From a virus, in IMG/VR virus record IMGVR_UViG_3300023106_000022, positions 1 to 37,792 of that record: DNA of 37,792 bases; one strand, given 5' to 3'. The position numbers and the translations under genes are program-made. The notes beneath the pieces were generated by a model, which worked only from the letters and a program-made list of their open reading frames with translations, did not search any database and had not been told where the DNA came from. Shown here piece after piece: positions 2,793-28,516 of the stretch (positions are counted from its first letter, which is position 1; every line of letters begins with the position of its first letter).

Positions 2793-3089
2793 TTACCAAT
2801 CCTGAGCGCCACCGCCTTGCGCTACTTTTGGCGCTGTATAATTTGTTGTTACTGTACCGCCGGCATTCTCTACTGTTTTAACGGCTGCAGCAGTACTGTT
2901 TGTAAGAAGGTTTTTAATAAGGTAGCCTATGAATGTACCTATGGCTGTGATCGCTATTTGTTTCCAAACTATAGGCGGATTTTGAAGGGCCTGCTGCACT
3001 GCCACAAGGGTAGGCACAATGACAGCTAATATTGCTCCCTTTAAAAAGTCTGATCCTTTAAGTTGCAGGAAATCTGATTTTAAACTCAT
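2793..3089 (-). CDS. Holin-like two-helix membrane protein
   Basis: A 98-residue protein with two predicted membrane helices, roughly residues 16-35 (LKGAILAVIVPTLVAVQQAL) and 42-62 (WKQIAITAIGTFIGYLIKNLL). They are joined by a short loop with Pro and Trp and followed by a hydrophilic Gly/Ala/Thr-rich tail. Size, topology and position as the last gene before the late terminator fit a class II holin, which would form inner-membrane lesions at the end of infection. It lies just downstream of a spanin-like pair. Holins are too diverse for certainty without a profile match. Confidence 0.65.
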   Translation of the reverse strand: MSLKSDFLQLKGSDFLKGAILAVIVPTLVAVQQALQNPPIVWKQIAITAIGTFIGYLIKNLLTNSTAAAVKTVENAGGTVTTNYTAPKVAQGGGAQDW

Positions 3090-3099
3090 AATATTAATT

Positions 3100-3513
3100 T
3101 TAAGGTTTTTTACTTATTTCTTTTGCCTTACCAAAGATATTGATTTTGTAGTAAACGGTATCTATCCTTACTTCCTGAACTGCGTAATCATTGGCATATT
3201 CGGGTTTAGTAATTATTACCGGGTTGGATGCAACTTCTTTGTAAAAGGTATTTTCTTTTTTAAGTTTGGAAAGCACATACTTTAAACTGTCATTCTCCTG
3301 GGTGATGCGCTTCATTGCCGCTAACGTTAGCTTAGTATTATGCACTATCGGGCTGTCAAGGGATATAGCCTCCCTTAATTTAGTTTGGGTAGCCTGCTTA
3401 ATACCGGCATTTATCTGCTGCTTTATATAATCTTCCCCTTTGGGTGCCTGATCCTTTGTACCTGCTAAAACACAGGTGAAAATACCTAACAAAAAGTAGA
3501 ATGTCGGTTTCAT
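3100..3513 (-). CDS. Exported coiled-coil protein, possible outer spanin
   Basis: A 137-residue protein with an N-terminal hydrophobic signal (KPTFYFLLGIFTCVLAG) and a cysteine at residue 14 that could be a relaxed lipobox, although its sequence is not a textbook one. A coiled-coil body follows (about 70-95, MKRITQENDSLKYVLSKLKK) and then a strand-rich tail. Its ATG overlaps the stop of the preceding coiled-coil membrane gene in an ATGA. Paired, overlapping genes of this kind next to a holin are typical of Rz/Rz1-like spanins, which disrupt the outer membrane in Gram-negative lysis. The assignment is by architecture only. Confidence 0.5.
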   Translation of the reverse strand: MKPTFYFLLGIFTCVLAGTKDQAPKGEDYIKQQINAGIKQATQTKLREAISLDSPIVHNTKLTLAAMKRITQENDSLKYVLSKLKKENTFYKEVASNPVIITKPEYANDYAVQEVRIDTVYYKINIFGKAKEISKKP

Positions 3514-3806
3514 TTTATTTTTAATATTTTTTTTGCACTGTCCTGTATCTCTAACCTTCTTTCTCTTTGCTCAACTGACCTTACTGCTGCGTCATACTTT
3601 TCTGTGTTACATTCTTTTAATTCAAATTGAGCCTGCTCCTTTTGAGATCGCTCATATATTATCGTCAATTCCTGTGCCTTATTTTTCTGATAGTATACAA
3701 TTCCTACCGTAGATGACAAAGCGGTAATTACAGCAAGAGCAAACATTATTGAAATTCGCTGCCACGGGCTTTTTATTCCTTGCGTCCATGCTGTTGTATC
3801 TGCCAT
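3510..3806 (-). CDS. Single-TM coiled-coil protein, possible inner spanin
   Basis: A 98-residue protein with one membrane helix at about residues 18-38 (ISIMFALAVITALSSTVGIVYY). A long charged coiled-coil tail of about 60 residues follows (KAQELTIIYERSQKEQAQF onward). The short N-terminus followed by a TM anchor and periplasmic coiled coil is the shape of an Rz-type inner-membrane spanin. Its stop overlaps the next start by ATGA, and the next protein looks exported. No sequence family is recognised, so the role rests on shape and position inside the lysis cassette. Confidence 0.5.
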   Translation of the reverse strand: MADTTAWTQGIKSPWQRISIMFALAVITALSSTVGIVYYQKNKAQELTIIYERSQKEQAQFELKECNTEKYDAAVRSVEQRERRLEIQDSAKKILKIK

Positions 3807-4561: not shown

Positions 4562-5986
4562 TTAATATGTTATCTCAAGTTGTTTAGTGGTCGGGGCGGT
4601 AACAGTAACATTCGTTGCGTTAATTCTGTATAGCCTGCACAATGCGTTTGCGGGAATCTCACCGCTGAGTTCCTGATCTTGATTTCCTGTAAGTGTTACT
4701 GCCAAAGAAAATACATTTGAAACGCTGCCGCACGTTATCCACGTAGTACCGCCGTCAGTGCTGTAATCTAACTGAACATATCCGTTGGATGTTGTCAATG
4801 TAAGAGCAAATGCGAAATTAATCGTGTAATGAGCACGTGCGTTCTTTGTAGAACTTATTGTGAATGTATTATTGCTTCCTGTAGTGGATAGTAAACGTGA
4901 GGGTGCTGTGTTGAATGAAGGCGCTGCCGCTGTATATTGAGGCACATTTAAAACCCCTGTTGAATTGTTGTACGTAGCAGCGCCGGATGTACCGGTAGTT
5001 GTAATAGAAATGGCTGTCCGTGCCGTACTTGTACCATCCGTTATTCCGTAGCCGCTCAAAGTTGTGGGCTTGCCGGTAACTGATGCAAATGTTTGTGCCG
5101 GTACGCTTGTTAAGAATCCCGAAGGATTTCCCGAAAGCGGGTAAGCATCAGAAATTCCATATCCCAAAAGTGTAGTAGGCTTTCCTGTTAATGAAGCAAA
5201 AGATTGAGCAGGAACACTGCTTATATATCCGTTTGGATTTGTAGCGTTGTAAGGCGTATAGCCCAATGCTGTAGTAACTTGTCCGCTTGATATGCTTGTT
5301 AAATACCCTACATCATTTGTCCATTGTGAAATATTACCGGACTTATTTGTAAGTGTATTTGTTGAAGAAGGCGTGAGGTAGGTTCCTGCGGGTTGATATG
5401 TTGACGCAGCGGTGCTACTCAAAAGATACCCTGCGGTAGCATGATTACCCCAACCATATGCAGTGTTCCAATTTGATATATTCGTGCCTGTTATTCCACT
5501 TGCTACAGATGCAGTAAATACGGGATCTATTTCTGTGGTTACGGGCGTACCTCCTAAAGCTGTTGCTATAGATCCTGCGGTCAGCGCTGCCGTAAACATT
5601 GCTGCAAAAGCCGCCGTCCTCATTTTAGTATCTAATGTGTCAGGCAAACCGAGTACTGTTGTCATTGGCACTACAATCTCCCTCATAGGAGTAGATTTTA
5701 AACGTCCGTTAGGCATCTTCCAAAGCATTGCACCGGTAGGATTACCGCCCGCCGTATCAATACCGCTTAATACAAACTCAGGAGCGATAAATTCCACTTT
5801 TGTAGAATCGCTGACACGACCTACTACTTTTAAGGTTACATTGTTTCTGAACTCTCCGCTACGCATCACATTGTTTACTACATAAGAAATACCTTGCGCA
5901 AAGGTTTCTTTAGCACCGAATAATGCAAATATTGCTGCAATACATTTCACGGTAATTTTCAGCATCTTAATTAACAGGTGTATCAT
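4562..5986 (-). CDS. Repetitive tail-fibre protein with signal peptide
   Basis: A 474-residue protein with a fibre-type centre. Residues 152-187 carry the phage-fibre pattern TEIDPVF ... NWNTAYGWGNHATAGYL. Residues 215-229 have the NKSGNISQWTNDVGYLT type, and two copies of a 25-residue unit (SVPAQ-FAS-TGKPTTL-GYGI) lie at 257-281 and 294-318. These are trimeric-fibre hallmarks. The C-terminal 120 residues are beta-rich and may be the receptor-binding tip. The N-terminus looks like a Sec signal ending AKETFAQ, best formed if the ATG at 5965 is used instead of 5986. A signal peptide on a virion fibre is odd; two neighbours share it. Confidence 0.85.
   Translation of the reverse strand: MIHLLIKMLKITVKCIAAIFALFGAKETFAQGISYVVNNVMRSGEFRNNVTLKVVGRVSDSTKVEFIAPEFVLSGIDTAGGNPTGAMLWKMPNGRLKSTPMREIVVPMTTVLGLPDTLDTKMRTAAFAAMFTAALTAGSIATALGGTPVTTEIDPVFTASVASGITGTNISNWNTAYGWGNHATAGYLLSSTAASTYQPAGTYLTPSSTNTLTNKSGNISQWTNDVGYLTSISSGQVTTALGYTPYNATNPNGYISSVPAQSFASLTGKPTTLLGYGISDAYPLSGNPSGFLTSVPAQTFASVTGKPTTLSGYGITDGTSTARTAISITTTGTSGAATYNNSTGVLNVPQYTAAAPSFNTAPSRLLSTTGSNNTFTISSTKNARAHYTINFAFALTLTTSNGYVQLDYSTDGGTTWITCGSVSNVFSLAVTLTGNQDQELSGEIPANALCRLYRINATNVTVTAPTTKQLEITY
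5033..5218. repeat. Tandem fibre repeat within the fibre gene
   Basis: Two in-frame copies of a 25-codon unit, at about 5218-5144 and 5107-5033, encode SVPAQ(S/T)FAS(L/V)TGKPTTL(L/S)GYGI(S/T)D. They are separated by 12 codons. The units are typical of phage fibre shafts and could change in number by recombination. Confidence 0.8.
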
Positions 5987-6004
5987 TGGTTTGTTTTTAA
6001 ACTT

Positions 6005-7756
6005 TTATTGTATAACATCCCATCTTTCATTTCCCTCATCATACTTCAACTTATAGGAATAATCTACATTTCCGAATGCGCCTAACGACACTTCAGTTTC
6101 ATAATTACCCGTATTCTTATTCATAATTCCTCCATGTCCATAGGCTATTTTAATATTAGAGGTGTTACCGGAACCTCTGTAAATTGTTATTTCTCTCCTA
6201 TCTACTGTCCCGGTAAGCGTAATAGTATAATCTGCGCCACCGTTTTGCGCCGGGATAACTACATCATCATCTCCTAAAGTGTAAGCGGCTGATACAGGTG
6301 TATTGTTTCTTACTACTCTTCTTGTTTCATTAAAAGAACGCTGAATGAATGCGTTTGAAGTTGAATTTCCTGAGAAGTCCTGATCGCTCCACACCCCTAC
6401 AGATGCAGGATCATTTGCCGTTAATTTAATACTATTAGCATTCCCTAATTCCACCTGTGTTCTATAAGACCCTCTTTGATTTCTCAATATCAAACTTTGT
6501 TCATCATCATCCTCACTTAAATATCTATAATTATCAGCATCTCCATTCAGATTACCTGAATATATAAATCTTGTGCTTGTGTTGGATTTTAGTTCTATAT
6601 CTCCCGTTACAGGTCCGCTTGTTCCATCTGTACCCGTAATAGGTATGTATGCACCGCCGGCTGCTGCCTGCCATGTAGCATTACCCGAAGCATCGGATGT
6701 GAGGACTTTGCCGGAGGCTTGATTTCCGTCTGTGTATTTTAAAGTGCCAAGTAAATCAAGAGTTGCTGTAGCCGTTCTTTGCCCTACTGCTAAACCTCCG
6801 GGAGTGTTAAAATAAGTTGTCCCGCTTGCACGTATAGCAGCCTGTGAGCTATCATTCCGGGGATCGCCACCATTTTTAGGCGCAAGAAAATAAAGATCTC
6901 CATTGGCTTTTTGAGCCATGTAAGTATATTGGGTTGTATGACCGCCATTTGTCCAAAACTTCAACCATCTGTTTTTTATGCGACTGTCTTTGCTTAACCA
7001 ACCAACCATTGCAGAATCATAATTTGCATATCTTTCTTCCGCCATTGGGTAGCCCCCTGAGATATCTTTACCGTAAATGAAATGTCGGTAGGCCCAATCT
7101 ATATTACTTGTAGAGTTACTCCACGTACGCATAATAGGCGTCACATATCCGGCTGTATTGCTATAATTCTGTAAGCTCCATCCGTTACGGCCGTAAGGCG
7201 TTTTTGTACTTATCGCAAGTCCCTGTCCGTTCTCATTTCCCCAAGACTTATCTACAATAATATTCATTGCGGCATAATCCTGTTCTAACGCATCGTCTCC
7301 AGCCATTTTTGAATGCACTGTATCAGCGCCTACCCAAACCTTATCTTTTGCAATTGTGGTTGTCTGAGTTGGTGTACCTTGAGCAAACCAAAGAGCCTTA
7401 TTATTTAAATTAGCCTTCCTGTTACCTGTAAATGATGCCGAGGTGCTGTAAATTGAAGTATCTATATTACCAAAGGCTCCTGATGAAACTAACATCCATT
7501 TAGTTCTTGCGGTGTTCCTGTACCAATAAGCATCAGGAGTAATAGTGTGAATTAAAGCTCCTGAATACGCTTTATTGTATTGTGTATTTGCTGCAGCCGT
7601 GTCTACTACGTCAATAGGAATAAAATTCGTTTTAATAGCACCGGGAGCAGGAATCAGCGTGCCAGAAGAACCCTGATGTGATCCTAATACAGGATATTGA
7701 GCCATTGAGGTAAGGCCCGATACAATGAATGAAATTAAAAATATTATTTTTCTCAT
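6005..7756 (-). CDS. Fibre or spike protein with signal peptide
   Basis: A 583-residue protein from the ATG at 7756; a TTG two codons upstream is possible. Residues 1-20 are a clear Sec signal (RKIIFLISFIVSGLTSMAQ). The mature N-terminal part has Tyr/Trp-rich beta segments. Near the middle, the motif LDLLGTLKYTDGNQASGKVLTSDASG is the adhesin/fibre linker pattern often seen in Bacteroidota surface proteins and phage fibres. The C-terminal third is beta-rich (YTLGDDDVVIPAQNGGADYTI) and ends in DEGNERWDVIQ. Its place between other fibre genes supports a receptor-binding role. The signal peptide argues for export, which is unusual for a virion protein. Confidence 0.8.
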   Translation of the reverse strand: MRKIIFLISFIVSGLTSMAQYPVLGSHQGSSGTLIPAPGAIKTNFIPIDVVDTAAANTQYNKAYSGALIHTITPDAYWYRNTARTKWMLVSSGAFGNIDTSIYSTSASFTGNRKANLNNKALWFAQGTPTQTTTIAKDKVWVGADTVHSKMAGDDALEQDYAAMNIIVDKSWGNENGQGLAISTKTPYGRNGWSLQNYSNTAGYVTPIMRTWSNSTSNIDWAYRHFIYGKDISGGYPMAEERYANYDSAMVGWLSKDSRIKNRWLKFWTNGGHTTQYTYMAQKANGDLYFLAPKNGGDPRNDSSQAAIRASGTTYFNTPGGLAVGQRTATATLDLLGTLKYTDGNQASGKVLTSDASGNATWQAAAGGAYIPITGTDGTSGPVTGDIELKSNTSTRFIYSGNLNGDADNYRYLSEDDDEQSLILRNQRGSYRTQVELGNANSIKLTANDPASVGVWSDQDFSGNSTSNAFIQRSFNETRRVVRNNTPVSAAYTLGDDDVVIPAQNGGADYTITLTGTVDRREITIYRGSGNTSNIKIAYGHGGIMNKNTGNYETEVSLGAFGNVDYSYKLKYDEGNERWDVIQ

Positions 7757-7773
7757 GATCAATTCTTTAAGTG

Positions 7774-8016
7774 TTATTTTATAGGGCTAAGGAAGATGAT
7801 TAATTTGCTGTTTTCAAGCCACTTGTATGGTCTTGTAATTGTTCCGGATAATGGGTTATGGATAAAATCGGGATTGGGCTCAAGACCATTTTCGTTTAAA
7901 TTATCTACCTCGAGTTTATGTACTACCACATTTTTTAATGCATTGTTTTGAAATGTGCTGCTGTCTACTATAGGTGAATCATGTGTAGTACCTACGGTAA
8001 ATTGTAATGTTGTCAT
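7774..8016 (-). CDS. Small hypothetical protein in fibre module
   Basis: An 80-residue protein with a strand-rich N-terminus (TTLQFTVGTTHDSPIV). Its C-terminus, YKWLENSKLIIFLSPIK, resembles the last strands of phage fibre accessory proteins. No signal peptide, in contrast to both neighbours. It sits 17 nt before the next gene and 61 nt after the previous one, inside the adhesion module. It may be an accessory or chaperone of the fibre; no family is recognised. Confidence 0.6.
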   Translation of the reverse strand: MTTLQFTVGTTHDSPIVDSSTFQNNALKNVVVHKLEVDNLNENGLEPNPDFIHNPLSGTITRPYKWLENSKLIIFLSPIK

Positions 8017-8077
8017 TGTGTTAAAATATTTAGGTTAAAAAAGCAAAAATAAACAGATCAACCCACTTTTATAAGGT

Positions 8078-8626
8078 CTAAAAAGTCTCAATTTTAACAT
8101 ATTCCCCTGATTGAAGACCAACATTTAAAATAATATTGTTTGAAACAACATCTTTTTGATAATATATAGATCCGTCCCCGGGGTTTATTCCCGGCACTAT
8201 TTGAAACCCTCTTATCACACTTACTCTTTTATTGGAAAAAGCGACCGATGAAATTGTATCGCTGCCGGCATAAATTCCTGTTACTGTTTGCATAGTTCCG
8301 GTAACTACAGGAGCCGCACCCCCTACAAATCCTTCTACCCTCACCTCTGTTACACCTGCTCCTGCTGCCACATTGGACCATGCTTTAGTAGAAGGGTTAT
8401 ATACATACATCACTGCTGCGCATGAATCAAAATATACTGCTGCCTGTTTAAGGTCAGTGCCTCTTAACACTGCAGAGCCGCAGCCGGTAGGAAAAAATAA
8501 AGTGCTATCTATCGCAATACGATATTGGCGATTCCCGTAAGAAGTGTTATTTCTTATCCAACCTCCCTGAGCAAAAGAGGATTGGCATATTGCAAGTACT
8601 ATTAAGAAAGATAGTATTTTTTTCAT
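8078..8626 (-). CDS. Exported fibre-like protein
   Basis: A 182-residue protein with a textbook Sec signal at residues 1-19 (KKILSFLIVLAICQSSFAQ). A Gly/Val/Thr-rich beta protein follows. The sequence AVMYVYNPSTKAWSNVAAGAG is the type of strand-turn seen in fibre and adhesin stalks, and the protein ends in LQSGEYVKIETF. It lies 9 nt downstream of the collar-type fibre gene. Probably part of the adhesion apparatus or an exported surface protein; the signal peptide makes both plausible. Confidence 0.7.
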   Translation of the reverse strand: MKKILSFLIVLAICQSSFAQGGWIRNNTSYGNRQYRIAIDSTLFFPTGCGSAVLRGTDLKQAAVYFDSCAAVMYVYNPSTKAWSNVAAGAGVTEVRVEGFVGGAAPVVTGTMQTVTGIYAGSDTISSVAFSNKRVSVIRGFQIVPGINPGDGSIYYQKDVVSNNIILNVGLQSGEYVKIETF

Positions 8627-8635
8627 TTTTCAAAT

Positions 8636-10024
8636 TTAACATCTTATTAAACAATATGCACCGATATTATCAACTATATTTTTACTCCCTGCACGTTGCA
8701 AGGGAACCCCTGTAGCGCCATCCCTCAACCCGTCTGTAAGATCCAAACCTGCCTGATAAACAGCTGCAGAACCACCGATATAACCTGTACCGCCAGGAGT
8801 ATTAGAAGTTGAGTGTGGCGTTGCGTGTGCATGGCTTATTGTGCTTTCAATTTCAAGGCTTCCGATAAGGCGAATTGAACCATCTACCCCTTTAAGCATT
8901 TGATTTGTCAGCAATGGCAGGCGAAAAGTAGTGCTGCCATCACCTGTACTAAAACACCCTTTTTTAGTGTAATATGTAATACCATCCCTTATAACAGTGG
9001 TAGAGTTCCAAGCCGTATCACTTACCACTACCCCTGCATCTAAGGTTTGAATAAAGCTCCATAAACGCGGATAATCTGCACGATTTTTTTCCCTTCCATC
9101 CATCAGCAGGGTATTTAATTCACTCTGAAAATAATTGTAAAGCACCTCTCCTACTGCTTTTGCGCCAAAAAGATCATTATCTATGTACAGTTTTCCAAAA
9201 GCTTTGTAGCACCGTAGTACCTCGCCTTGCCCCAACACTATTTTTGACTTATTTCCTGTATAATAAAACACATCCCCCGCTGTGGCAGCTATTGAAGCGT
9301 TTTTATGATTGCCGCCGTTTGAATAAATATAGAACCATGAAAAATCAGGCATGCCCGAAACAGGCGGCAGTACCGTATTTATTGAAGTCGTAGCAGATTG
9401 AAGTATTAAAGCCGTTCCTATATCCGCATTGGTGAACACTTCATCAGCTGTAACGATCCTCGCAGATGAAAATGTAGGCGATGGTGCGCCGGGAGCCAAA
9501 GGAACTGCCTGGGGAATGAAAAATATATTAAATTTCTCGTTTGGCTGAAAGTTATCTCCTGCCTGTATCAGGGTAAAACCGTCTGTGTCTTTATGATAAA
9601 CAGGGTTTGTAGTAGGCGCAAAATCGGGTGTTATCGTACCTGATCCCACCCTTTCAATCCAATAATCCCAACCCGCTAAAGTAGGATCTACATAAGATGT
9701 GGCACCGCTTACCAAGCCCGGCGTAATATCCGCTTCCAGGTACTCAGGCAGGCGTACCAAAATGCTGAATGCATTGACAGCCTGGCTAAATGAGTTGCGC
9801 ACCACCCCGGTAGCGGTCCCGTTCGCCGATTCCCACAGCTTTATTATGTAAATATGGCCCGAGATGCAATTAAAAGTAAAAGATATTTGTAACGGGTTGC
9901 CGTACGGTTTTGCCGGTGTAACTGTTTCAAGCAATACTGTAGGCGCTGATGCATCATACAGCGCAAATGCAAAGAAATTAGCAGGGTTTTGTAGTGTGGT
10001 CTGTGATGATACGCTGATGTACAT
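8636..10024 (-). CDS. Tail fibre protein with collar-type C-terminus
   Basis: A 462-residue protein. Residues 98-172 form a beta domain with ER(V)GSGT ... GFTLIQAGDNFQPNEKF. A related domain is found in the head-tail connector at 20545-21405. The C-terminal part (about 315-462) has the order of a tail-collar domain: a DGRE-KNRADYPRLW segment, then GCFSTGDGSTTFRLPLL, then His/Asn-rich SHAHATPHSTSN, ending NIGAYCLIRC. Collar domains sit on short fibres or baseplate-distal fibres and often bind metal through these His residues. Its ATG lies one base after the stop of the large tail protein, so it is probably co-assembled at the tail tip. Confidence 0.8.
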   Translation of the reverse strand: MYISVSSQTTLQNPANFFAFALYDASAPTVLLETVTPAKPYGNPLQISFTFNCISGHIYIIKLWESANGTATGVVRNSFSQAVNAFSILVRLPEYLEADITPGLVSGATSYVDPTLAGWDYWIERVGSGTITPDFAPTTNPVYHKDTDGFTLIQAGDNFQPNEKFNIFFIPQAVPLAPGAPSPTFSSARIVTADEVFTNADIGTALILQSATTSINTVLPPVSGMPDFSWFYIYSNGGNHKNASIAATAGDVFYYTGNKSKIVLGQGEVLRCYKAFGKLYIDNDLFGAKAVGEVLYNYFQSELNTLLMDGREKNRADYPRLWSFIQTLDAGVVVSDTAWNSTTVIRDGITYYTKKGCFSTGDGSTTFRLPLLTNQMLKGVDGSIRLIGSLEIESTISHAHATPHSTSNTPGGTGYIGGSAAVYQAGLDLTDGLRDGATGVPLQRAGSKNIVDNIGAYCLIRC

Positions 10025-10025
10025 T

Positions 10026-13000
10026 TTAATTATTTATAGTGATTTCTATTAAATCAGTATCAGTAGTGCCGCTTGCATTTGTAACATTCGGTCCGAAAGA
10101 CTGAGGGTTTACAGATACGATCAATGAATTATCAAGATCGATGCCCGCTGCCGTTACGCTTATACCATCTACATTTCTTGATGGTCTTATTTCTATCTTT
10201 TGCAGTTTTTTAGGCGCACCTTTGGTAAATACCGTTTCCCATTCAGCTCCTTCATTCAAGCTGAAGCCTTCGCCGTCCACTTTAGTTTCATCCATCAACA
10301 ATGCCCGCATTATTTTTTTAGTAACGTAATCCGGCACACCCTCATCACCGAAAATAAAAAGGTCTGTTACTTCATACGTGATTGCATTCAATACGGAAAG
10401 ATCTGCAGGCTGATTGGTGTAAAATCTTCCCGTGTATTTTTGCCGGAATAAATTATCATAGCCGCCACGCACCCGCATAACGCCCGTAAATGGTGTTACA
10501 CCATCAAAGACCATCGCCTGAGTATTAAATGAGTTTCTGAACTCAAATAGAACCGTATCTTCCCAATTCTGCTCTACACTCAGGCATTCACTTATAAGCA
10601 GATCGCCTACTGTAGTGCTGCTTATTACGATGTAATGGCACCCTGCATCCCACCCGGTTGTATCAATATCATACTGCCATAAAATATACGGATTTATAAC
10701 GGCAGGACTTGATATTGTGTTAAGATTCTGCGGCCCTGCATAGACGGTTCCATCTGATTTGTAAACCGTATAAAATATAGGGTCAATCTCCCTTGTAAAA
10801 AATTGAAGTGTAATAGGATCTCCAATCTGTACCGGTTGATGATAGCCGCCTTTTTGAAACCATCTTTGCAATTGCTCTGAAAATAAAAAACTGTTGCGGT
10901 TATAAGTATGGTATTTCGGATCAAGCACCCTTTTGAAAGGCACAAACTGAACGGCGGAGCTTTGGGAAACAAATATCGAAGTCGGTGCCATTTCAGGTTG
11001 TTTGAATGATGTTATGTTTGCAAATATATTTAAATCTGTTTTAGGAGATAAAAGTAATTTCCATTGCTGCGTTTCATTAAGGGCAGGTTTTTGGCTTACT
11101 TCTAACGGAAACCCGTAAATATCATTGCCCATGAAAGTAAGCTGCACATGAGCATTTATTGCGGCACTCAGCAACTCCGCAAACATGGAGTTAACCTTTA
11201 CGCTAAATTCTATCTCAATAGGGTAAAAGATGCGTTGCGCATCCAAAATAGTTTCATCGCTGTCCTCTGTTATGGTTACGCCGTTTAACGATCTGCTCAG
11301 GTACTTATTTTTACTTAAAGTCTGAAATATCATGTTTCCTGTAACCTGATCCATGAAGCAGGACCGCCAATACTTTTTCCATCTTTTATAAGCCGTTTTT
11401 GGCGTAACATCCTCAATATTATAAGGAGCGCCGGCTATATCAGAACGTACAATCCCCGCGGCATTTGTAGCAATATTGGGAATGCCTGAAAGGCTATCGT
11501 ATTGTACCCTCTTTAAATTGTAAGCCTTTATGTAATCCGATGTAAATGTAACATCTGATGAGCTCAGCGATACAAACAAATTTATATTTGTGGAAGAAAC
11601 CACAAAAAATACAATATCCCCTAATTGATAATTTCGTGAAAAGGAAGGTGCATTTGAATTAAAAGTATTTAAAGCTACTGATCCGGGGACCGTGATCGCG
11701 GTAGTTACTACGCCGTTATAAAATACCTCTGCAATAAAAGGCTGTACGCTGCCCCGCACGCTGCCCTGAATATTAAGATCAAACTTAAATCCGGTATTCG
11801 GCACCAATGAGTTAAAAGTAAAATACTGAAAGCCATACTGCACTTTTGAAACGCCTACGGTGTAAGGTTGACTTGTAGGCAGTACATTCGGCAAGGAGAG
11901 CAATTTCTGAAATGTGCCCGGCAATACAGGAATATTTACCCCCGACATATTCACATAAGAACCGATTGTAAGCGTTGCGGTGTTAATATTAGCCTCTGCG
12001 CTTATTGTAGTGCTCATTGCTATCCATATAACAGATTCAAAGGCAAATGCCTCTGTAAAGTTCTGATTGATAGAAATAGGCGTATTTACCCCGGTAACGA
12101 TTATTGTTTGCGTGAATATTACCACGCCATTATGCACAACCTTAAAAGTAATGCTGTCAGGCGGCGTACCTGGTGGCTTATTAACCTCATTTACTATGCC
12201 GTTAATATTTATATTACATACCTCGGTTGCGGCATACCCGGGCAAACTAAAAACAAATATCGCAGTATCAATATTACTATCGAAATATTCTCCTTCCTGA
12301 TAAAGCTGCACCATTTTTTGATATGGCACACCCGGCTGCAGGTTTACATTGGTATTTACAGGGTTGAAAGGGTCAGTAATAACTGATCGGTAATGTGCAG
12401 CAAAATAATCGTAAATAAAAACGCTTCTGTCTGTATTTAGACCAAAAAGGCTGTTATCGCTGTCATTGCGCGTGGTACTTGTTGGGGAAGCGCCTATGTT
12501 AGACCTTAATTTCTCTATACCGTATGAATCCCAACGCGTTTTACTTATTTTTTCAATTTTTTTCTCAAAAGATATTACCGGAGCTTTCATTTCAAGCGTG
12601 GTATTATATTCGTACTTACCCGCTTTCTGATCATATGTTTGCGGCGCATACCCTATGGCAATATCAGAGAAAAGATACTCCTGCGCAAATCTCCATTTAA
12701 GGTTATTTACCTCTCCCACATTAAACGAAACAGTGCTTGAATCAAAAACATCTTCAAACCGCTCTATAAATACCGTCTCCCCGGAGCCATTATGCCCAAT
12801 ACCAAGAGCGGCGCAAAGCGGAACGCTAAGGTCTTCAAAAAGTTCTTTTAATGTTTTTTTAATAACGGGGCCGAAAGATGTTTGTCCTACATCATTTGAA
12901 TAATAATATCGCTGATACGTAGGGTCGCCGCTTGCCCTGATTGCATCGCCTGATGCAAAAGAGAAGTTCAAAAAGTCTGTAAGCAATTGACTTGTTGCCT

Positions 13001-14129
13001 GATAATTAAATACCTGACCGGTAGTAGAGGACTGGCGGCATATTTCCGCAATCATCAGTTTAAAAAGATCTAATCCGGATACGCCCCACGTACGGGTACT
13101 CCTAAATTTACTCTTAAAATTCAATGAGAAATTTCCTGCAATTATTTCATGGCTGTCACTTGCATCTACAGAGGTCATTTGATAAACCAAAAAAAGCTTT
13201 TCGTATGGCTGTAAAACTATTTCTGCTTCAAAATCAAACCGTGTGTCCTGCGTTATTTCAGTGAGAGGGATAAGAATAACATTGCTTCCCGGGTTCTGTG
13301 TTCTGTAATATAATTGAAATTTTACAGTTATTGCAGTATTTGGGTCGTTATCATTAAGATCGCGATTACCAACTATAATACTGCCTTTTAATTTAACCCT
13401 GATCGTTTCAATAGAATAAATATCATACTCGCTGCTTGATAATATCAGTAGATCATTAGGCACCTCACTACCTACCGGAGTGCCGCGCACAATACCATAA
13501 TTATCGCCTTCATTATTAATGAATGAAGCCCCAAGCCAATGCGCAACAGGCGTAAAGCCTTTGGATGGCGTTATTTGATAGTAAAACGTATCTTCCACCA
13601 AAAGTCCATCCGTATTTACTTTTATGTTCTCGGGTATTGATCCGTCACATGGAATTTCTAAAACGGTGTTCTCGTAAGATTTCAAAAGCTGACCGATGCC
13701 GCCTTCCTGAAGGTTTACCGTAACCGTTTCCAATACCGTAACATCAACTTTACTCAGGTCAAGATTGCCTTTATAATATAATTTATATTCAGGATCGCCC
13801 GCTTGCGGATTGGAGTTATATTTAAAAACAGCAAGCGTTAATCTTACCTCTGTTCCTACTGTTGAAGTAATGAGATTTTTAATTATGTAAGCTCCGTCGC
13901 CCACAAAATCTATCGGTGTGGAAAAAGATCTGTTTAATCCGTGATAAGTAGAATTTCTGACAAATGAAAGTTGGGTATCAAGCCAATTGCCTGGTGAATC
14001 CTGTAATGACAAATCCATAGTCCCGGAGGTGATCGGGGAAGTTAATACGATTCCCGCTGCATTTCTATAATAAGCCCTCCCGGTGGGAGTATCAAGCAGA
14101 AAGAATAAAAATGTTTTCCGTGGAACCAT
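10026..14129 (-). CDS. Large tail-tip or baseplate protein
   Basis: A 1,367-residue protein, the longest in the window, directly after the tape measure gene. It is almost all beta, with no signal peptide, TM or coiled coil. Its N-terminal 200 residues look like a distal-tail or hub domain (TPTGRAYYRNAAGIVLTSPI ... LSFVRNSTYHGLNRSF). Near residues 420-470 a KKTLKELFEDL ... ALGIGHNGSGETVFIERFED segment recalls hub proteins. Large proteins in this slot form the tail tip, organise fibres and contact the cell surface. The exact fold (gpJ-like or otherwise) cannot be read by eye. Confidence 0.75.
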   Translation of the reverse strand: MVPRKTFLFFLLDTPTGRAYYRNAAGIVLTSPITSGTMDLSLQDSPGNWLDTQLSFVRNSTYHGLNRSFSTPIDFVGDGAYIIKNLITSTVGTEVRLTLAVFKYNSNPQAGDPEYKLYYKGNLDLSKVDVTVLETVTVNLQEGGIGQLLKSYENTVLEIPCDGSIPENIKVNTDGLLVEDTFYYQITPSKGFTPVAHWLGASFINNEGDNYGIVRGTPVGSEVPNDLLILSSSEYDIYSIETIRVKLKGSIIVGNRDLNDNDPNTAITVKFQLYYRTQNPGSNVILIPLTEITQDTRFDFEAEIVLQPYEKLFLVYQMTSVDASDSHEIIAGNFSLNFKSKFRSTRTWGVSGLDLFKLMIAEICRQSSTTGQVFNYQATSQLLTDFLNFSFASGDAIRASGDPTYQRYYYSNDVGQTSFGPVIKKTLKELFEDLSVPLCAALGIGHNGSGETVFIERFEDVFDSSTVSFNVGEVNNLKWRFAQEYLFSDIAIGYAPQTYDQKAGKYEYNTTLEMKAPVISFEKKIEKISKTRWDSYGIEKLRSNIGASPTSTTRNDSDNSLFGLNTDRSVFIYDYFAAHYRSVITDPFNPVNTNVNLQPGVPYQKMVQLYQEGEYFDSNIDTAIFVFSLPGYAATEVCNININGIVNEVNKPPGTPPDSITFKVVHNGVVIFTQTIIVTGVNTPISINQNFTEAFAFESVIWIAMSTTISAEANINTATLTIGSYVNMSGVNIPVLPGTFQKLLSLPNVLPTSQPYTVGVSKVQYGFQYFTFNSLVPNTGFKFDLNIQGSVRGSVQPFIAEVFYNGVVTTAITVPGSVALNTFNSNAPSFSRNYQLGDIVFFVVSSTNINLFVSLSSSDVTFTSDYIKAYNLKRVQYDSLSGIPNIATNAAGIVRSDIAGAPYNIEDVTPKTAYKRWKKYWRSCFMDQVTGNMIFQTLSKNKYLSRSLNGVTITEDSDETILDAQRIFYPIEIEFSVKVNSMFAELLSAAINAHVQLTFMGNDIYGFPLEVSQKPALNETQQWKLLLSPKTDLNIFANITSFKQPEMAPTSIFVSQSSAVQFVPFKRVLDPKYHTYNRNSFLFSEQLQRWFQKGGYHQPVQIGDPITLQFFTREIDPIFYTVYKSDGTVYAGPQNLNTISSPAVINPYILWQYDIDTTGWDAGCHYIVISSTTVGDLLISECLSVEQNWEDTVLFEFRNSFNTQAMVFDGVTPFTGVMRVRGGYDNLFRQKYTGRFYTNQPADLSVLNAITYEVTDLFIFGDEGVPDYVTKKIMRALLMDETKVDGEGFSLNEGAEWETVFTKGAPKKLQKIEIRPSRNVDGISVTAAGIDLDNSLIVSVNPQSFGPNVTNASGTTDTDLIEITINN

Positions 14130-14153: not shown

Positions 14154-17100
14154 TCAATTCTTAAAATTCTTATCTACATAAGCTCCCCACATTCCATTCA
14201 CCGTTACATTCACATTCGGCATGCGCTGCTTTTTAAATACGTTCTGCGTGGCCCTGTTACCGCTTTCTATCGTATCAATGAGGTCATGCAATAACCTGTC
14301 ATTATTCTTAGCTGCTGCCGCCTGATCTGCCATCTGTAAAACACCCGCCGTTGATGTTATCATGGAACTATAAAGCGCATTGTTAATGGTGTCAGATAAT
14401 GGCGTTACACGGGACCCTTTCGGCAAATTATTAAGCAATAGAGGCCCTGCCGTTATATAAGACCGCCCGCCTTTTTCCTGTACCAATTCGGGCTGATAGC
14501 CGGATGTGGTCTTTTTTTCCCCTACCCACGCCGGACCCCCGGGTGCATTATCTGTTCCTTCTCCGAATGTTGGTATAGGTGCTGCAATAGCCGCGGCAAG
14601 TTCCGCAGCCCCGGTAATTCCTGCTAAAATAGCGCTTGCTGTTCTTGTCAGTGGATCACCGGTTGTTAGCGCATGAATGACTGCCAAAGCCGTTTCAGTG
14701 ATAATTCGGCTTATATTAATAGCCTTATCCAGCTTTGCCTGCTTTATTTTAAGCGCTTGCTCCTGATTGGCAATTTGCTCTTTTTTAGCCTGCTGCGAGG
14801 CTTGTATCTGAGTGATCTGCGCCGCTTTCTCCTGCTCTGAAAGCGTAGAATTTTTTATATTTTCTATTTCAGCGGCAGAATTTTCATCAAGCATGCGCCT
14901 TTCTTCCTCTAATTGGTCAATTCTCTTTTGGTAATAATTATCAGCAAGTTTTTGAGCCAAAGAGAAGAACGTCTCTACTGCTTTTAATTCAATTTGGTAG
15001 TAAATATCTTTTAATGCCTGATTGTCTTTCTCATCTGCCTGCTGCTCTTCTAAGCCCAATTTATTTAACGCGGTTTGGTTTTGCTTAATACGTAATGCCG
15101 AGGCTTTTTTGGCTTCTATTGTAGATTTGCCTGATTCAACTATAGCACGGTCCGCAGATAAGGCATTTTCAATAGTTGCACGCTGTGTTTCCCTTTCAAG
15201 TTTTTCAGCTTGTTTGGCAAAGTCCTTTTTATTTTTCAGTGACTTATAAAGGCTCAATTCCTCCTGAGATAAACGTAAATTGTCTGCTGCTTCTGCTTCA
15301 GTAAGTTGTGCCATTTGACTGCTGACAAACACTTCGCTGATTTCTTTGCGTGCCTTTTCCTGCAATGATTTCAACTTTGCATTATGATCCTGTTCTAAAG
15401 CAAACATTTCATCTAAAGTCATTATACGGGTAGCCTTATCGTATTCAAACTGCCTGTTGATCAGATTTGTTTCTTCTGTGTAGTATTCAGTGAATGCAGC
15501 AAGCCGCTGATCATAAGAATATGAATCTGATTTGGTTATTTCATCGTAATATTCCTGATGAACAGAAACAATGCTTTTATTTGTTTCAAGTTCCGCAGTC
15601 AGGCGGCGCTTACGATACTCTTCCTGAACATTGAATATTGAACCCTGCAGATCCTTTTCTATTTTTAAACGATCTGCGGCGGCTTTAGATATTGCCAGCT
15701 TAGCTTCTGTGGTCAGGCTTCCATCTTCATTTCTATTCGCCGGGTTATCTGTAATCTTTTTTAAATCCGCATCAATTATTTTTTTTCGTTGGTCTGCCGT
15801 TGACCTTAATGCTGCGATTCTTTCTTGTTCAAAATTCCTGTCATCAGCAAGTATGCGTTCATTGGCATCAATTATCTTTTGTGCTTTTTGCTTTGCTGTT
15901 TCCGTTGATAACTCTAAAGCCTGCTGTGCATAATAAGCCTCCAGCTCTGCCTGCTTTATTAAAAAGTCTTTCTGTGTGGAAAAGTTGTTTAAATTAATAG
16001 CTTTTTGATCTTCAGCGGCTTTAGCTGACCTTTTCGCTTTCTTTTCAAGCAAATCAACTGTAGTAGTAAGATCAGGAACTAAATCTTTATCTGCTATTTG
16101 AAAAACACCTTTGCTTGTTTCAAAACCTGCATTTGGGTTGGTCTTTCTTTCTTTTAAAATATCATTCAACTGCTGAGCTGCTGTATTATACTCAATGGCA
16201 TCAACGAGCGCAGCGTTTTGTAATTCTGCCTGCTGTCCGAATCCGCCTGTTTCAATGAATTGTTGATTTGCTGCCAAAGCTCTTTTGCTTGCTATGTCTA
16301 TTTCCGTTTTTAAAATATCGGCACGGCTTTTACCTAACGCCTGCGCAAGCTGTACTTCCTTTTCTAAGCGATCAATATTATTTATAGCTTCCCCGTTTGC
16401 AGCATTCAAGTCCTTTTGAACTTCTACCAAACGTTGCGTAGCTTCTGCAAGTTCTTCAGTTTGCTTCTTAACTTCTAATTCTGTCTTACCGTAGGATAAC
16501 AAAGCACTCACACCTGCAATGATTGGCTCTGTAAGTAATCCGATAACTCCCGCAAGACCAAGTCCCGGAATGATATATGCAATTTTACGTAAGCCGCTGA
16601 ATAAGTTGCCGGCGGCGGAAGATATTTTATTTAAGCCATTACTTACACCTGCAGGAGAGGCATCAGCACCACCCGCACCCGGGTAATTACCAACATTCAA
16701 ACGATTACGGTTTCCTGCTTCCTTTTCAAGATCCTTTACCTGTTGAGATAACCCGCTAACGACACCGCCAAGCCTTTGCCCCTGCGGAGTAGCACGTTCT
16801 GAAGCACTAAGGCGATCGTAAGCCAAAGTAAGGCGGGTGAGCGCTAAGCGCCTCTGCTCTATAGAACCTTTTTCGGCAAGCTCTTCACGCACTGTAGCCT
16901 TCAGTTCTGCGCGGGCTTCGGTTTCTAATTGCTTACGTAAAGCCTGCTGTTTGAGCATTTCTTCGCCGGTAAGCTTTATTTGCGCCTGCTCATCTTTTTT
17001 AGCCTTAGCTGTTGTTCCCACACTTACAAAATATTCTTCCTCCGCCTTATTGCGGGCAGCCTCAGCGGATTGATTTTTTTCTAACTGTAAACGCTCCTCA

Positions 17101-17447
17101 GCCAAAGCGCTATTCTTTAAACGCTGCGCATTCACAGCATCTAATGATGCTTGTTTGTCGCTTTGCGCCGCTGCTTTCCTCTCTGCTGCCATTTTTCGCT
17201 GCTCAAGAGCATAAGCCGCTGTTTCCCTTTTTAAATTCGCCGTTTCAAGAGCCGCTTTTTTTATTTCCAAAGATGCTGCTGCACTTTGTTGCTTCAATTC
17301 TGAGAAACCGCCGCCGCTGCCTGGCACAATTTTTAAGCCATCCAAACGCTTTGCGCTCGCTATCACCTCATCAAAACCTTTAATAATGACCATTTTGGAC
17401 GCCTCAAACCGGGTTTCATCAAACGAAACTTCTTGTATATTAGCCAT
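14154..17447 (-). CDS. Tail tape measure protein
   Basis: A 1,097-residue protein. The first 250 residues are Ala/Lys/Glu/Gln-rich coiled coil. A Gly-rich hydrophobic stretch at about 280-320 (IAYIIPGLGLAGVIGLL) is the typical membrane-active segment. Long coiled coils follow to about residue 930. The C-terminus has the common tape-measure block GPAWVGEKK ... PELVQEKGG ... LPKGSRVTP. The protein sets tail length and is ejected before DNA. By the usual 0.15 nm per residue, a tail of about 165 nm is expected, so siphovirus-like. It overlaps the previous gene by one base (TAATG). Confidence 0.95.
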   Translation of the reverse strand: MANIQEVSFDETRFEASKMVIIKGFDEVIASAKRLDGLKIVPGSGGGFSELKQQSAAASLEIKKAALETANLKRETAAYALEQRKMAAERKAAAQSDKQASLDAVNAQRLKNSALAEERLQLEKNQSAEAARNKAEEEYFVSVGTTAKAKKDEQAQIKLTGEEMLKQQALRKQLETEARAELKATVREELAEKGSIEQRRLALTRLTLAYDRLSASERATPQGQRLGGVVSGLSQQVKDLEKEAGNRNRLNVGNYPGAGGADASPAGVSNGLNKISSAAGNLFSGLRKIAYIIPGLGLAGVIGLLTEPIIAGVSALLSYGKTELEVKKQTEELAEATQRLVEVQKDLNAANGEAINNIDRLEKEVQLAQALGKSRADILKTEIDIASKRALAANQQFIETGGFGQQAELQNAALVDAIEYNTAAQQLNDILKERKTNPNAGFETSKGVFQIADKDLVPDLTTTVDLLEKKAKRSAKAAEDQKAINLNNFSTQKDFLIKQAELEAYYAQQALELSTETAKQKAQKIIDANERILADDRNFEQERIAALRSTADQRKKIIDADLKKITDNPANRNEDGSLTTEAKLAISKAAADRLKIEKDLQGSIFNVQEEYRKRRLTAELETNKSIVSVHQEYYDEITKSDSYSYDQRLAAFTEYYTEETNLINRQFEYDKATRIMTLDEMFALEQDHNAKLKSLQEKARKEISEVFVSSQMAQLTEAEAADNLRLSQEELSLYKSLKNKKDFAKQAEKLERETQRATIENALSADRAIVESGKSTIEAKKASALRIKQNQTALNKLGLEEQQADEKDNQALKDIYYQIELKAVETFFSLAQKLADNYYQKRIDQLEEERRMLDENSAAEIENIKNSTLSEQEKAAQITQIQASQQAKKEQIANQEQALKIKQAKLDKAINISRIITETALAVIHALTTGDPLTRTASAILAGITGAAELAAAIAAPIPTFGEGTDNAPGGPAWVGEKKTTSGYQPELVQEKGGRSYITAGPLLLNNLPKGSRVTPLSDTINNALYSSMITSTAGVLQMADQAAAAKNNDRLLHDLIDTIESGNRATQNVFKKQRMPNVNVTVNGMWGAYVDKNFKN

Positions 17448-20548: not shown

Positions 20549-21405
20549 AACCCGAGGCTGTTTCTGTACTCAAAGATCTTGTTTCTGTGACAACTGTAAT
20601 TTGTCCAATCCGAATTGTACTCTAAATTAGCTGTGATCAATCCTGAAGGACTGAAAGTAAAATTAAAGTATTCGTTCGGCTGTGTCCCATCAGTCAAAGT
20701 AAAAACCGCTGTTTGCGGGTCCCACGTATAACCCACGTTATCTACAAGCGTTCCCTGTCCGATTCTTTCCGGGTAAATCTCATAGCCTTTAAAGTTGGGC
20801 GCTCCCGCCGTACCTTCAAAGGTAAATGATGTTTGATTTGCACCGAATCCTGTCGTTATGCCTGCCTGAAGTGTTACCGGAGCTCTGTAACCAAGTGGAT
20901 TAGTGTAGTAGTCAACCTGTCCCGAAGTGCCGTAGAAAAAATTCATGTATGTGATAAATCCTTTCAGATAATCTGCCATTTCATTCCATGCATTTACCAT
21001 TTTGAATACAGGAGATGCACTCACAGCATTTTGCGATTTTGTTTTCGCTTCGCCGCCGCTTACGCTATTTGTGCTTTCCTCCTCCTGGTAGCAGTAGTAA
21101 ACAAAATTTGCCAACGGGGACAGTTTTTTATCATTCTGCAGCCCTATCCAATCACAATATTTTCCATCCGATGAAAATACCATTCCTTTTAAAAGCCCAT
21201 AAAAATAACTTGTCTGATCCAGTGGCATGACAGCATACCAAGCAGCAAACTGAGTATATAATGACGGTCCGAGAATCTTATTCAAAAATTCGTATTGGCT
21301 GTCTGTTATAAGCGCAGTTATACGGTTCTGAACGGAACCCGTTTCGGCAATATTAGGAATACTCAGTTTGCCCTTGAAATATGTATAATCTATAAGGTTG
21401 TTCAT
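20545..21405 (-). CDS. Head-tail connector (adaptor) protein
   Basis: A 286-residue protein. The N-terminal 160 residues are helical and rich in aromatics (ITDSQYEFLNKILGPSLYTQF ... YYCYQEEESTNSVSG). This resembles the helical adaptors that dock on the portal. Residues 180-255 are a beta domain with ERIGQGTL ... FTLTDGTQPNEYFNF that matches a domain in the collar-type fibre. The last 30 residues are polar with Tyr and Trp. It follows the capsid genes and precedes the tail-terminator-like gene, the canonical connector slot. Confidence 0.62.
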   Translation of the reverse strand: MNNLIDYTYFKGKLSIPNIAETGSVQNRITALITDSQYEFLNKILGPSLYTQFAAWYAVMPLDQTSYFYGLLKGMVFSSDGKYCDWIGLQNDKKLSPLANFVYYCYQEEESTNSVSGGEAKTKSQNAVSASPVFKMVNAWNEMADYLKGFITYMNFFYGTSGQVDYYTNPLGYRAPVTLQAGITTGFGANQTSFTFEGTAGAPNFKGYEIYPERIGQGTLVDNVGYTWDPQTAVFTLTDGTQPNEYFNFTFSPSGLITANLEYNSDWTNYSCHRNKIFEYRNSLGL

Positions 21406-21800
21406 TACTCTGAGGGAACAATTAGTTTAGCCGCAGATGTTCCTGTAACAGTTGTTGCTCCGGATCGTATAATTCGCCAATAACGGGCTGCGGTGACCTT
21501 ATTCCATATTACAGTATTGGTTGCAGCGTTCGTCATTGTCAGTGTGTCGCTGTTGATGAAATTTGTACCGTTTACCGAATATGAAAGGATTGCCGTTCCT
21601 GCCATTGTTCCCGTTGCACGGGTAAATACCGGCTGAATCGTTACCATGCTATAGCCTTTTAACATAGTATAGTTCATTGTATCTATACTCGTGTTAAGGA
21701 TTGCACCGGTTGGATTGGTAGCCGTGTATTTGAAAGGCGTTTGGGCCTGAGAAGTCGTGAATACCGCTACAAGAGCGATAAGGCATAATATTTTACGCAT
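21405..21800 (-). CDS. Exported beta protein in head module
   Basis: A 131-residue protein from the ATG at 21800. This start overlaps the previous stop by 8 nt and gives a textbook Sec signal (RKILCLIALVAVFTTSQAQ); the longer frame is just Lys/Arg-rich overlap. The mature part is Thr/Ala/Asn-rich beta, with TAILSYSVNGTNFINSDTLT and a W-RIIRSGATTVTGTSAA end, similar to Ig-like or discoidin-like modules. The head module slot would suit a decoration protein, yet the signal peptide predicts export. It overlaps the next gene by one base. Confidence 0.7.
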   Translation of the reverse strand: MRKILCLIALVAVFTTSQAQTPFKYTATNPTGAILNTSIDTMNYTMLKGYSMVTIQPVFTRATGTMAGTAILSYSVNGTNFINSDTLTMTNAATNTVIWNKVTAARYWRIIRSGATTVTGTSAAKLIVPSE

Positions 21801-27772: not shown

Positions 27773-28516
27773 TTAGAAGAGTTTCGTTTGTGCGGTGTGG
27801 TTGGCGATGCGCTGCATGGCTTTGTCGAAGTAGTCTTTAGACTGTTCAATACAGATATAATTTCTGTTTTCCATTAGGCAGGCAATAGCTGTAGTTCCTG
27901 AACCACTGCAATTATCCAAAATGGTTTCACCTTCATTGCTGTAAGTTTTGATAAGATACCGGAAAAGATCAACAGGCTTTTGAGTAGGATGTATGGATGA
28001 ATTTTGTGTATCTGTACTAAATTGCTGAATACTTCTTGGATAACGTTCCGTACTTTCATAAGTATAATCCTCATTCATTTGTCCGTAAACTTCTGTTTGC
28101 AATTCTTTGGAACGTGAGCTTTTTTTATTCTTATGCCCGGTTGTTTTTTGCGGGTTGTAGATACATTGGTTTTTATAGAACACACTTATAACTTCATGTA
28201 CACGCATAGGCTGCTTCTTAGCGTTCAAAAATCCTGTTCCCTTTATTTTACCCCAAATAATATCATACTTAAATAGCTTCAAATTGCTCATTCTAAGATG
28301 TGAACTAAATGGCTCTGCTCCAAAAAGGATGATAGCCCCATTATCTTTTATAATTCTTTCGTATTGATTCCATAGCTTTTCAAAAGGTATTATTATATCC
28401 CAAAGGCACTGCGTTGTTCCATATGGCAAATCACAAAGGATCATATCTACGGACTTATCTTGAATAGTAGCCATAACCTGCAGGCACTCTACGTTAATCA
28501 TTTCATTTTTCAGCAT
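27773..28516 (-). CDS. Beta-class DNA methyltransferase (N4-C or N6-A)
   Basis: A 247-residue enzyme of the amino-methyltransferase type. Catalytic motif IV is D29-L-P-Y32-G, HPTQKP is at 176-181, and the SAM-binding motif I is at about 199-210 (ILDNCSGSGTTA). The order IV before I marks the beta class. It transfers a methyl group from SAM to the exocyclic amine of adenine or cytosine; the target site cannot be read. No restriction enzyme partner is nearby, so self-protection from host restriction or a regulatory role is likely. The start is ATG at 28516. Confidence 0.88.
   Translation of the reverse strand: MLKNEMINVECLQVMATIQDKSVDMILCDLPYGTTQCLWDIIIPFEKLWNQYERIIKDNGAIILFGAEPFSSHLRMSNLKLFKYDIIWGKIKGTGFLNAKKQPMRVHEVISVFYKNQCIYNPQKTTGHKNKKSSRSKELQTEVYGQMNEDYTYESTERYPRSIQQFSTDTQNSSIHPTQKPVDLFRYLIKTYSNEGETILDNCSGSGTTAIACLMENRNYICIEQSKDYFDKAMQRIANHTAQTKLF

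Follow-up and report, generated by a model that had tools for sequence, protein, structure and literature searches.

Predicted Sec signal peptides on fibre-region proteins of a probable Bacteroidota phage and a possible extracytoplasmic route to the virion

Signals of the Bacteroidota type on fibre-region proteins

The virus record IMGVR_UViG_3300023106_000022 of the IMG/VR database has a size of 37,792 bases and carries 52 genes; this whole stretch was analysed and is called the window. Three neighbouring minus-strand genes encode a predicted exported tail fibre of 474 amino acids (aa) (P1, 4562-5986), a predicted exported fibre-like protein of 583 aa (P2, 6005-7756) and a predicted exported fibre-region protein of 182 aa (P3, 8078-8626). 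An initial annotation had described Sec leaders ending in Ala-Gln on these proteins, and a custom heuristic scoring n-region, h-region and c-region, applied to every window gene, found all three. The P1 signal (5897-5986) comprises 30 residues, MIHLLIKMLKITVKCIAAIFALFGAKETFA|QG, with the predicted site TFA|QG (the bar marks the cleavage position). P2 starts with MRKIIFLISFIVSGLTSMA|QY (7700-7756, site SMA|QY), and an in-frame TTG upstream at 7762 would lengthen the protein by two residues. P3 starts with MKKILSFLIVLAICQSSFA|QG (8570-8626, site SFA|QG). An open reading frame (ORF) of 80 aa between P3 and P2 (7774-8016, minus strand) has no signal by the same heuristic. The initial annotation spoke of four such proteins; besides the three it cited, the heuristic was positive for a protein of 131 aa outside the cited span, encoded within the head-gene cluster (21405-21800, minus strand) and beginning with MRKILCLIALVAVFTTSQA|QT (21744-21800, site SQA|QT).

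Each of the four signals combines a positive n-region, an uncharged hydrophobic h-region, a small-x-small site and Gln at +1, the last being the established Q rule for Bacteroidota signals. By this pattern the four proteins are predicted to be substrates of Sec and signal peptidase I of the Bacteroidota Q-rule type. Such signals occur in 4 of the 52 window genes, more than expected by chance: shuffled N-termini gave a mean of 0.147 per genome, and three or more appeared in none of 1000 shuffles. A lipobox with Cys at +1, as in Bacteroidota lipoproteins, is absent from all four signals, which end in a small residue followed by Gln. The small-x-small|Gln site, present in 4/4 signals, likewise does not correspond to an uncleaved signal-anchor or signal-arrest-release type.

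P1 is a tailed-phage tail fibre according to its repeats and its predicted head. It matches the PHROG tail fibre family phrog_9729 (E=2.2e-16) and phrog_31472 (E=1.9e-20), and its shaft, approximately residues 151-320 (5027-5536), consists of repeats of the NWNTAYGWGNHA and LSGYGITD type. The NWNTAYGWGNHA repeats are common to ordinary tail fibres of cyanophages and others, which differ from P1 in the leader: 67 of 68 shaft-repeat fibre ORFs in IMG/VR contigs have no signal, although these belong largely to other hosts and hence are not a matched control. The C-terminal head domain (4562-4954) was modelled with AlphaFold as an all-beta structure of fair confidence (predicted local distance difference test, pLDDT, 81; predicted template modelling score, pTM, 0.74). 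Foldseek matched the model to the lambda tail tip, the TNF-like bacterial lectin PLTL and TNF, and among viral models to a tail-spike-type protein of Erwinia phage phiEa2809. Since the prediction is a TNF/C1q-like jelly roll, the head would suit a trimeric receptor-binding tip.

Fibre patterns had initially been read in two of the proteins. In P1 they are borne out by the family matches; P2 does contain the motif GKVLTSDASG, yet gave no significant match in Pfam, PHROG or NCBIfam. P3 had no family match in these collections either. The genes of P2 and P3 are placed after the tail genes. The first 90 residues of P3 (signal plus about 70) align with the N-terminus of a protein of 689 aa that the related phage G015 encodes at the corresponding place, and two Cys are conserved between both. 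An N-terminal domain common to P2 and P3 was considered and rejected; the match exists only between P3 and the G015 protein. The fourth protein lies apart from the fibre cluster, and its signal is kept in two relatives, G010 (30% identity, same gene order) and G006 (30% identity). Its AlphaFold model, built from three sequences, was poor (pLDDT 48).

Conservation of the signals and genomic setting

Relatives of the phage were found through the terminase in 28 IMG/VR contigs (49-69% identical), eleven of which were examined; P0002, P0003 and P0006, each used alone as a query, retrieved no relatives among viral contigs. The fibre region is covered in seven relatives (G002, G003, G005, G010, G011, G012 and G015; large terminase, TerL, 57-68% identical), while in G006, G008, G009 and G014 it lies outside the contig or outside the piece examined. 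All seven carry at least one gene with a Q-rule signal after the distal tail genes. The sites are ASA|QT and AEA|QF in G010, SSA|QV and VEA|QT in G015, ASA|QA in G012, AYG|QT and AHG|QT in G011, IQA|QV in G003, LQS|QT in G005 and CFS|QS in G002; those of G011, G005 and G002 were assigned by eye, the heuristic having chosen another site or stopped at a proline. The signals of the seven relatives are intact and have diverged in sequence with the pattern kept. The same arrangement is met again in another IMG/VR contig (L077:3761-8747), with three consecutive Q-rule proteins, the last a 1149-aa fibre with GNHA repeats. In G009 (L164:3900-5285) and G008 (L163:12604-14001), the gene at the major-capsid position has a hydrophobic start, in G009 MKRIKQSKYLVMAAMFLVTALLAIFGHA|QE; these leaders resemble capsid-protein signals noted in Porphyromonas gingivalis phages (PMC10367356).

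The last 120 residues of P1 align with three of the relatives and with gp25 and gp17 of the Pseudomonas phages AF and AH02, respectively. The head-domain alignment is too divergent to serve as a genome-scan query; a pattern scan found the domain in 29 viral contigs, which together with the window, AF and AH02 gives a family of 32 proteins. Of these, 29 have signals; Gln occupies +1 in 22 of them, and another residue in seven. The seven include AF, AH02 and contigs of 63-68% guanine plus cytosine, and have Gly, Ala, Asp, Leu or Phe at +1. Within the 29, the signals of L191, L197, L200, L201 and AH02 were assigned by eye from an internal start, and the least certain are those of L187, which has Cys at -1, of L188 with its long n-region and of the short protein L173. 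Because some contigs are near copies (L177/L180/L181, L184/L185, L192/L193, L194/L195), the independent cases are nearer twenty; moreover, L193, L184 and L194 correspond to the relatives G002, G003 and G005, respectively. Like P1, AF gp25 and AH02 gp17 combine a signal, repeats and the same head domain. Unlike P1, their sites (AFA|GP and CFA|AP) have no Gln, and they are hypothetical proteins without a virion record. The residue after the cleavage site thus fits the host group, Gln being found in Bacteroidota-type phages and not in the Pseudomonas phages.

Signals were also kept where the parts behind them have been exchanged. L189 and L190 have head domains 98% identical and both Q-rule signals, whereas they are unrelated over the sixty residues that follow the signal; L186 and L189 (head domains 96% identical) show the same N-terminal swap with signals kept. 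In Cellulophaga phages, phi10:1 gp092 and Nekkels gp53 are 76% identical in their C-terminal part and have unrelated N-termini, both signal-bearing, while Nekkels gp55 joins a start of the gp094 type to a lyase part that elsewhere follows a different signal. As a useless leader should not survive such module exchange, the leader probably has a function.

Concerning the setting of these genes, TerL is about 40% identical to the large terminase of Flavobacterium Muminvirus phages, and other isolate matches of the window are mostly to phages of Bacteroides, Phocaeicola, Parabacteroides and Flavobacterium. The host is therefore very likely a member of the Bacteroidota. The late genes lie on the minus strand in the order terminase, portal, head, tail, tape measure, distal tail, collar/fibre, signal-bearing fibre genes and probable lysis. 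The probable tape measure protein (14154-17447, minus strand) is assigned by position and length; its homologues occupy the same place in the relatives, and its sole family match is of unknown function. A large distal tail protein without signal (10026-14129, minus strand) matches the virion structural family phrog_15220 (E=9.6e-24), and its homologues are located upstream of the fibre genes in the relatives. It also matches a protein of Pan5, a phage of the cyanobacterium Pseudanabaena (25% identity over 66% of its length). The tail fibre/collar protein at 8636-10024 (minus strand) matches the PHROG tail families phrog_4849 (E=3.8e-13) and phrog_6921 and has no signal. Candidate lysis genes on the minus strand (2793-3806) comprise a hydrophobic 98-aa ORF and two ORFs resembling a spanin pair by their hydrophobic N-termini; this assignment is weak, the Rz-like spanin match of the ORF at 3510-3806 having E=0.089. 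An N6/N4 DNA methyltransferase gene (27773-28516; Pfam PF01555, E=1.6e-29) adjoins the small terminase.

Virion evidence from Cellulophaga phages and the proposed route

The four signals exceed the chance expectation, and signals of this kind recur in relatives and persist when domains are exchanged; evidence on where such proteins go comes from cultured Cellulophaga phages. GenBank notes cite tandem mass spectrometry (MS/MS) proteomics for phi10:1 gp091-094, phi19:1 gp101-103, phi18:3 gp085-087 and phiSM gp08, and all 11 of these fibre-region proteins carry Q-rule signals. A further MS/MS-annotated protein, phi19:1 gp104, has an apparent signal with Lys at +1, like its phi19:3 homologue. Among the MS/MS-annotated proteins scanned in six phages, Q-rule signals occur in 11/66; phi14:2 and phi4:1 have none (0/33). 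According to these deposited annotations, signal-bearing proteins of this class can reach virion preparations, which favours export followed by attachment over display on the host surface. The Cellulophaga cassettes (phi10:1, phi19:1, phi18:3, Nekkels and Ingeline) resemble the window in having three to five adjacent fibre-region genes each with a Sec signal, nearly all of the Q-rule type, and several of the signal-bearing members are recorded in virions. They differ in showing no BLAST-detectable homology to P2 or P3; several also contain domains of the pectate-lyase type, to which P1-P3 had no match. That the Ingeline and Nekkels lyases bear signal peptides has been mentioned in passing and left unexplained (PMC8776804).

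We propose, with a probability of about 0.55 for the explanation as a whole, that the window phage is a siphovirus of a Bacteroidota host whose proteins P1-P3, together with the protein from the head region, leave the cytoplasm by Sec, and that the fibres join virions at lysis. The fibre proteins would cross the inner membrane through Sec, and host signal peptidase I would cut after Ala, Ser or Gly and leave an N-terminal Gln. The fibres would then fold in the periplasm, the probable form of P1 being a trimer that has a TNF-like head. Virions would meanwhile be built in the cytoplasm, and the fibres would meet the tail tips once the inner membrane fails. By analogy with the Cellulophaga proteins, P1-P3 may themselves be virion parts. 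The initial annotation had named export with attachment at lysis as one possibility; the virion as destination is now favoured by the 11 MS/MS-annotated proteins of four phages, whereas the time of attachment belongs to the proposed model.

Several observations weigh against this proposal. The MS/MS notes are silent on leader removal, a co-purified periplasmic protein could account for them, and the virion record is confined to the Cellulophaga equivalents. No signal-bearing fibre was present in the scanned stretches of crAss001, phi14:2, phi4:1, phi38:1, phi12:3, B124-14 and mumin6-4. The trait is patchy, being absent from scanned phages of Bacteroides, Flavobacterium, Nonlabens and several Cellulophaga lineages; export therefore is not a general need of Bacteroidota phages. 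Three head-domain homologues (L174, L179 and L196) have no signal. A glycosylation motive for export is unsupported, as exported fibres show no enrichment of the Bacteroidota O-glycosylation motif D[ST][AILMVT] (observed/expected 0.64 versus 0.84 in unsignalled virion proteins). Disulphides were rejected as a general reason, since exported fibres contain less Cys rather than more, though P3 and its homologue keep two Cys.

Exported proteins of this kind might instead never enter the virion and act as soluble or surface-bound receptor-binding proteins, blocking receptors on the infected cell or on debris against other phages or the phage's own progeny. Real signals and a predicted TNF/C1q-like head that could bind a receptor would agree with this, exported phage proteins are known from lambda (Lom; PMC12309495) and from P. 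gingivalis phages (PMC10367356), and it could fit gp25 of phage AF, which has a separate tail spike. We consider it rather unlikely, given the MS/MS-annotated equivalents in four Cellulophaga phages. Surface display would moreover need a further route, and NCBIfam models of the C-terminal sorting domain of the type IX secretion system matched none of P1-P3, the 21405-21800 protein and five Cellulophaga phage proteins scanned. A decoy would also predict an unsignalled copy of the head on the virion fibre; the genome pieces examined contain no second, unsignalled copy, which counts against it. Display on the host, as raised in the initial annotation, thus found no positive support, and no other suggestive family was matched.

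That related proteins are found in virions, and that tailed-phage fibres normally assemble in the cytoplasm, would also be explained if the leader stayed uncleaved as a hydrophobic assembly or membrane-contact segment resembling a signal by coincidence. An assembly helix would need no such cleavage site, however, and the Gln +1 site is kept across unrelated N-termini in Bacteroidota-type phages, with Gly, Ala, Asp, Leu or Phe in its place in homologues of other phages; besides, the homologue L174 begins where the predicted mature AF-type protein would begin. This makes an uncleaved leader improbable. Least of all do we expect inert leaders on genes captured from host adhesin or surface-protein genes, although secreted proteins containing similar repeats are numerous in Bacteroidota genomes. 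Signals intact in 7/7 testable relatives, diverged with the pattern kept and retained on module exchange, disfavour this vestigial origin, as does the restriction of Gln +1 to Bacteroidota-type copies, and a limited pattern search of a genome collection retrieved neither P3 relatives nor relatives of the head domain.

Relation to known systems and implications

Passage of virion proteins through Sec before assembly is known from the coat proteins pIII and pVIII of filamentous phages. Unlike the fibres proposed here, these are anchored in the inner membrane and assembled during extrusion, and the phages are not tailed. Lambda Lom shares with P1-P3 that an exported protein is encoded among tail genes (PMC12309495); it is, in contrast, an outer-membrane beta-barrel and neither a fibre nor a virion part. 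Phages of P. gingivalis (Nixviridae) carry genes whose products start with Sec signals of the Bacteroidota type, Gln being at +1; among these are five Q-rule genes of unknown function, which differ in being non-fibre genes without a virion link that may alter the outer membrane (PMC10367356). Signal peptides are reported to be absent from those phage proteins that diversity-generating retroelements target (PMC6199706).

Exported proteins were also noticed in other phages. In Maribacter phage Molly_1 (L097:7301-10401), a protein annotated as tail fiber starts with a lipoprotein signal (LVGC|S), and after its gene comes that of an OmpA-family protein whose signal follows the Q rule; the two may be a surface-display pair. 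Two Bacteroides/Phocaeicola phages carry, outside their structural genes, predicted exported proteins of about 140 aa that have Gln at +1 and share a GSYRMG/SFRMG-like motif (L084:34527-34949, L086:28117-28524).

Full-text searches of open-access papers turned up no description of tailed-phage fibres exported by Sec, although isolated signal peptides are noted there; as coverage of that literature is incomplete, novelty is likely and not certain. In some tailed phages, fibres may first leave the cytoplasm and become part of the particle afterwards. Somewhat more tentatively, and with a little less than even confidence, we suggest a recurring group of tailed phages whose receptor-binding fibres would be exported by Sec, reach their mature form in the periplasm and not join the virion until lysis. 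The signals would be adapted to the phylum of the host, having Gln at +1 in Bacteroidota and lacking it in Pseudomonas phages.

In the textbook view, fibres of tailed phages fold and attach in the cytoplasm. If the proposal is true, there would be a second route of fibre assembly, one in which disulphides could form, or other modifications take place, in the periplasm and which would make completion of the virion depend on lysis. Signal-bearing genes in tail modules should then not be dismissed as host contamination or as lysogenic-conversion genes. As cultured Cellulophaga phages with signal-bearing virion proteins exist, the question is directly answerable.

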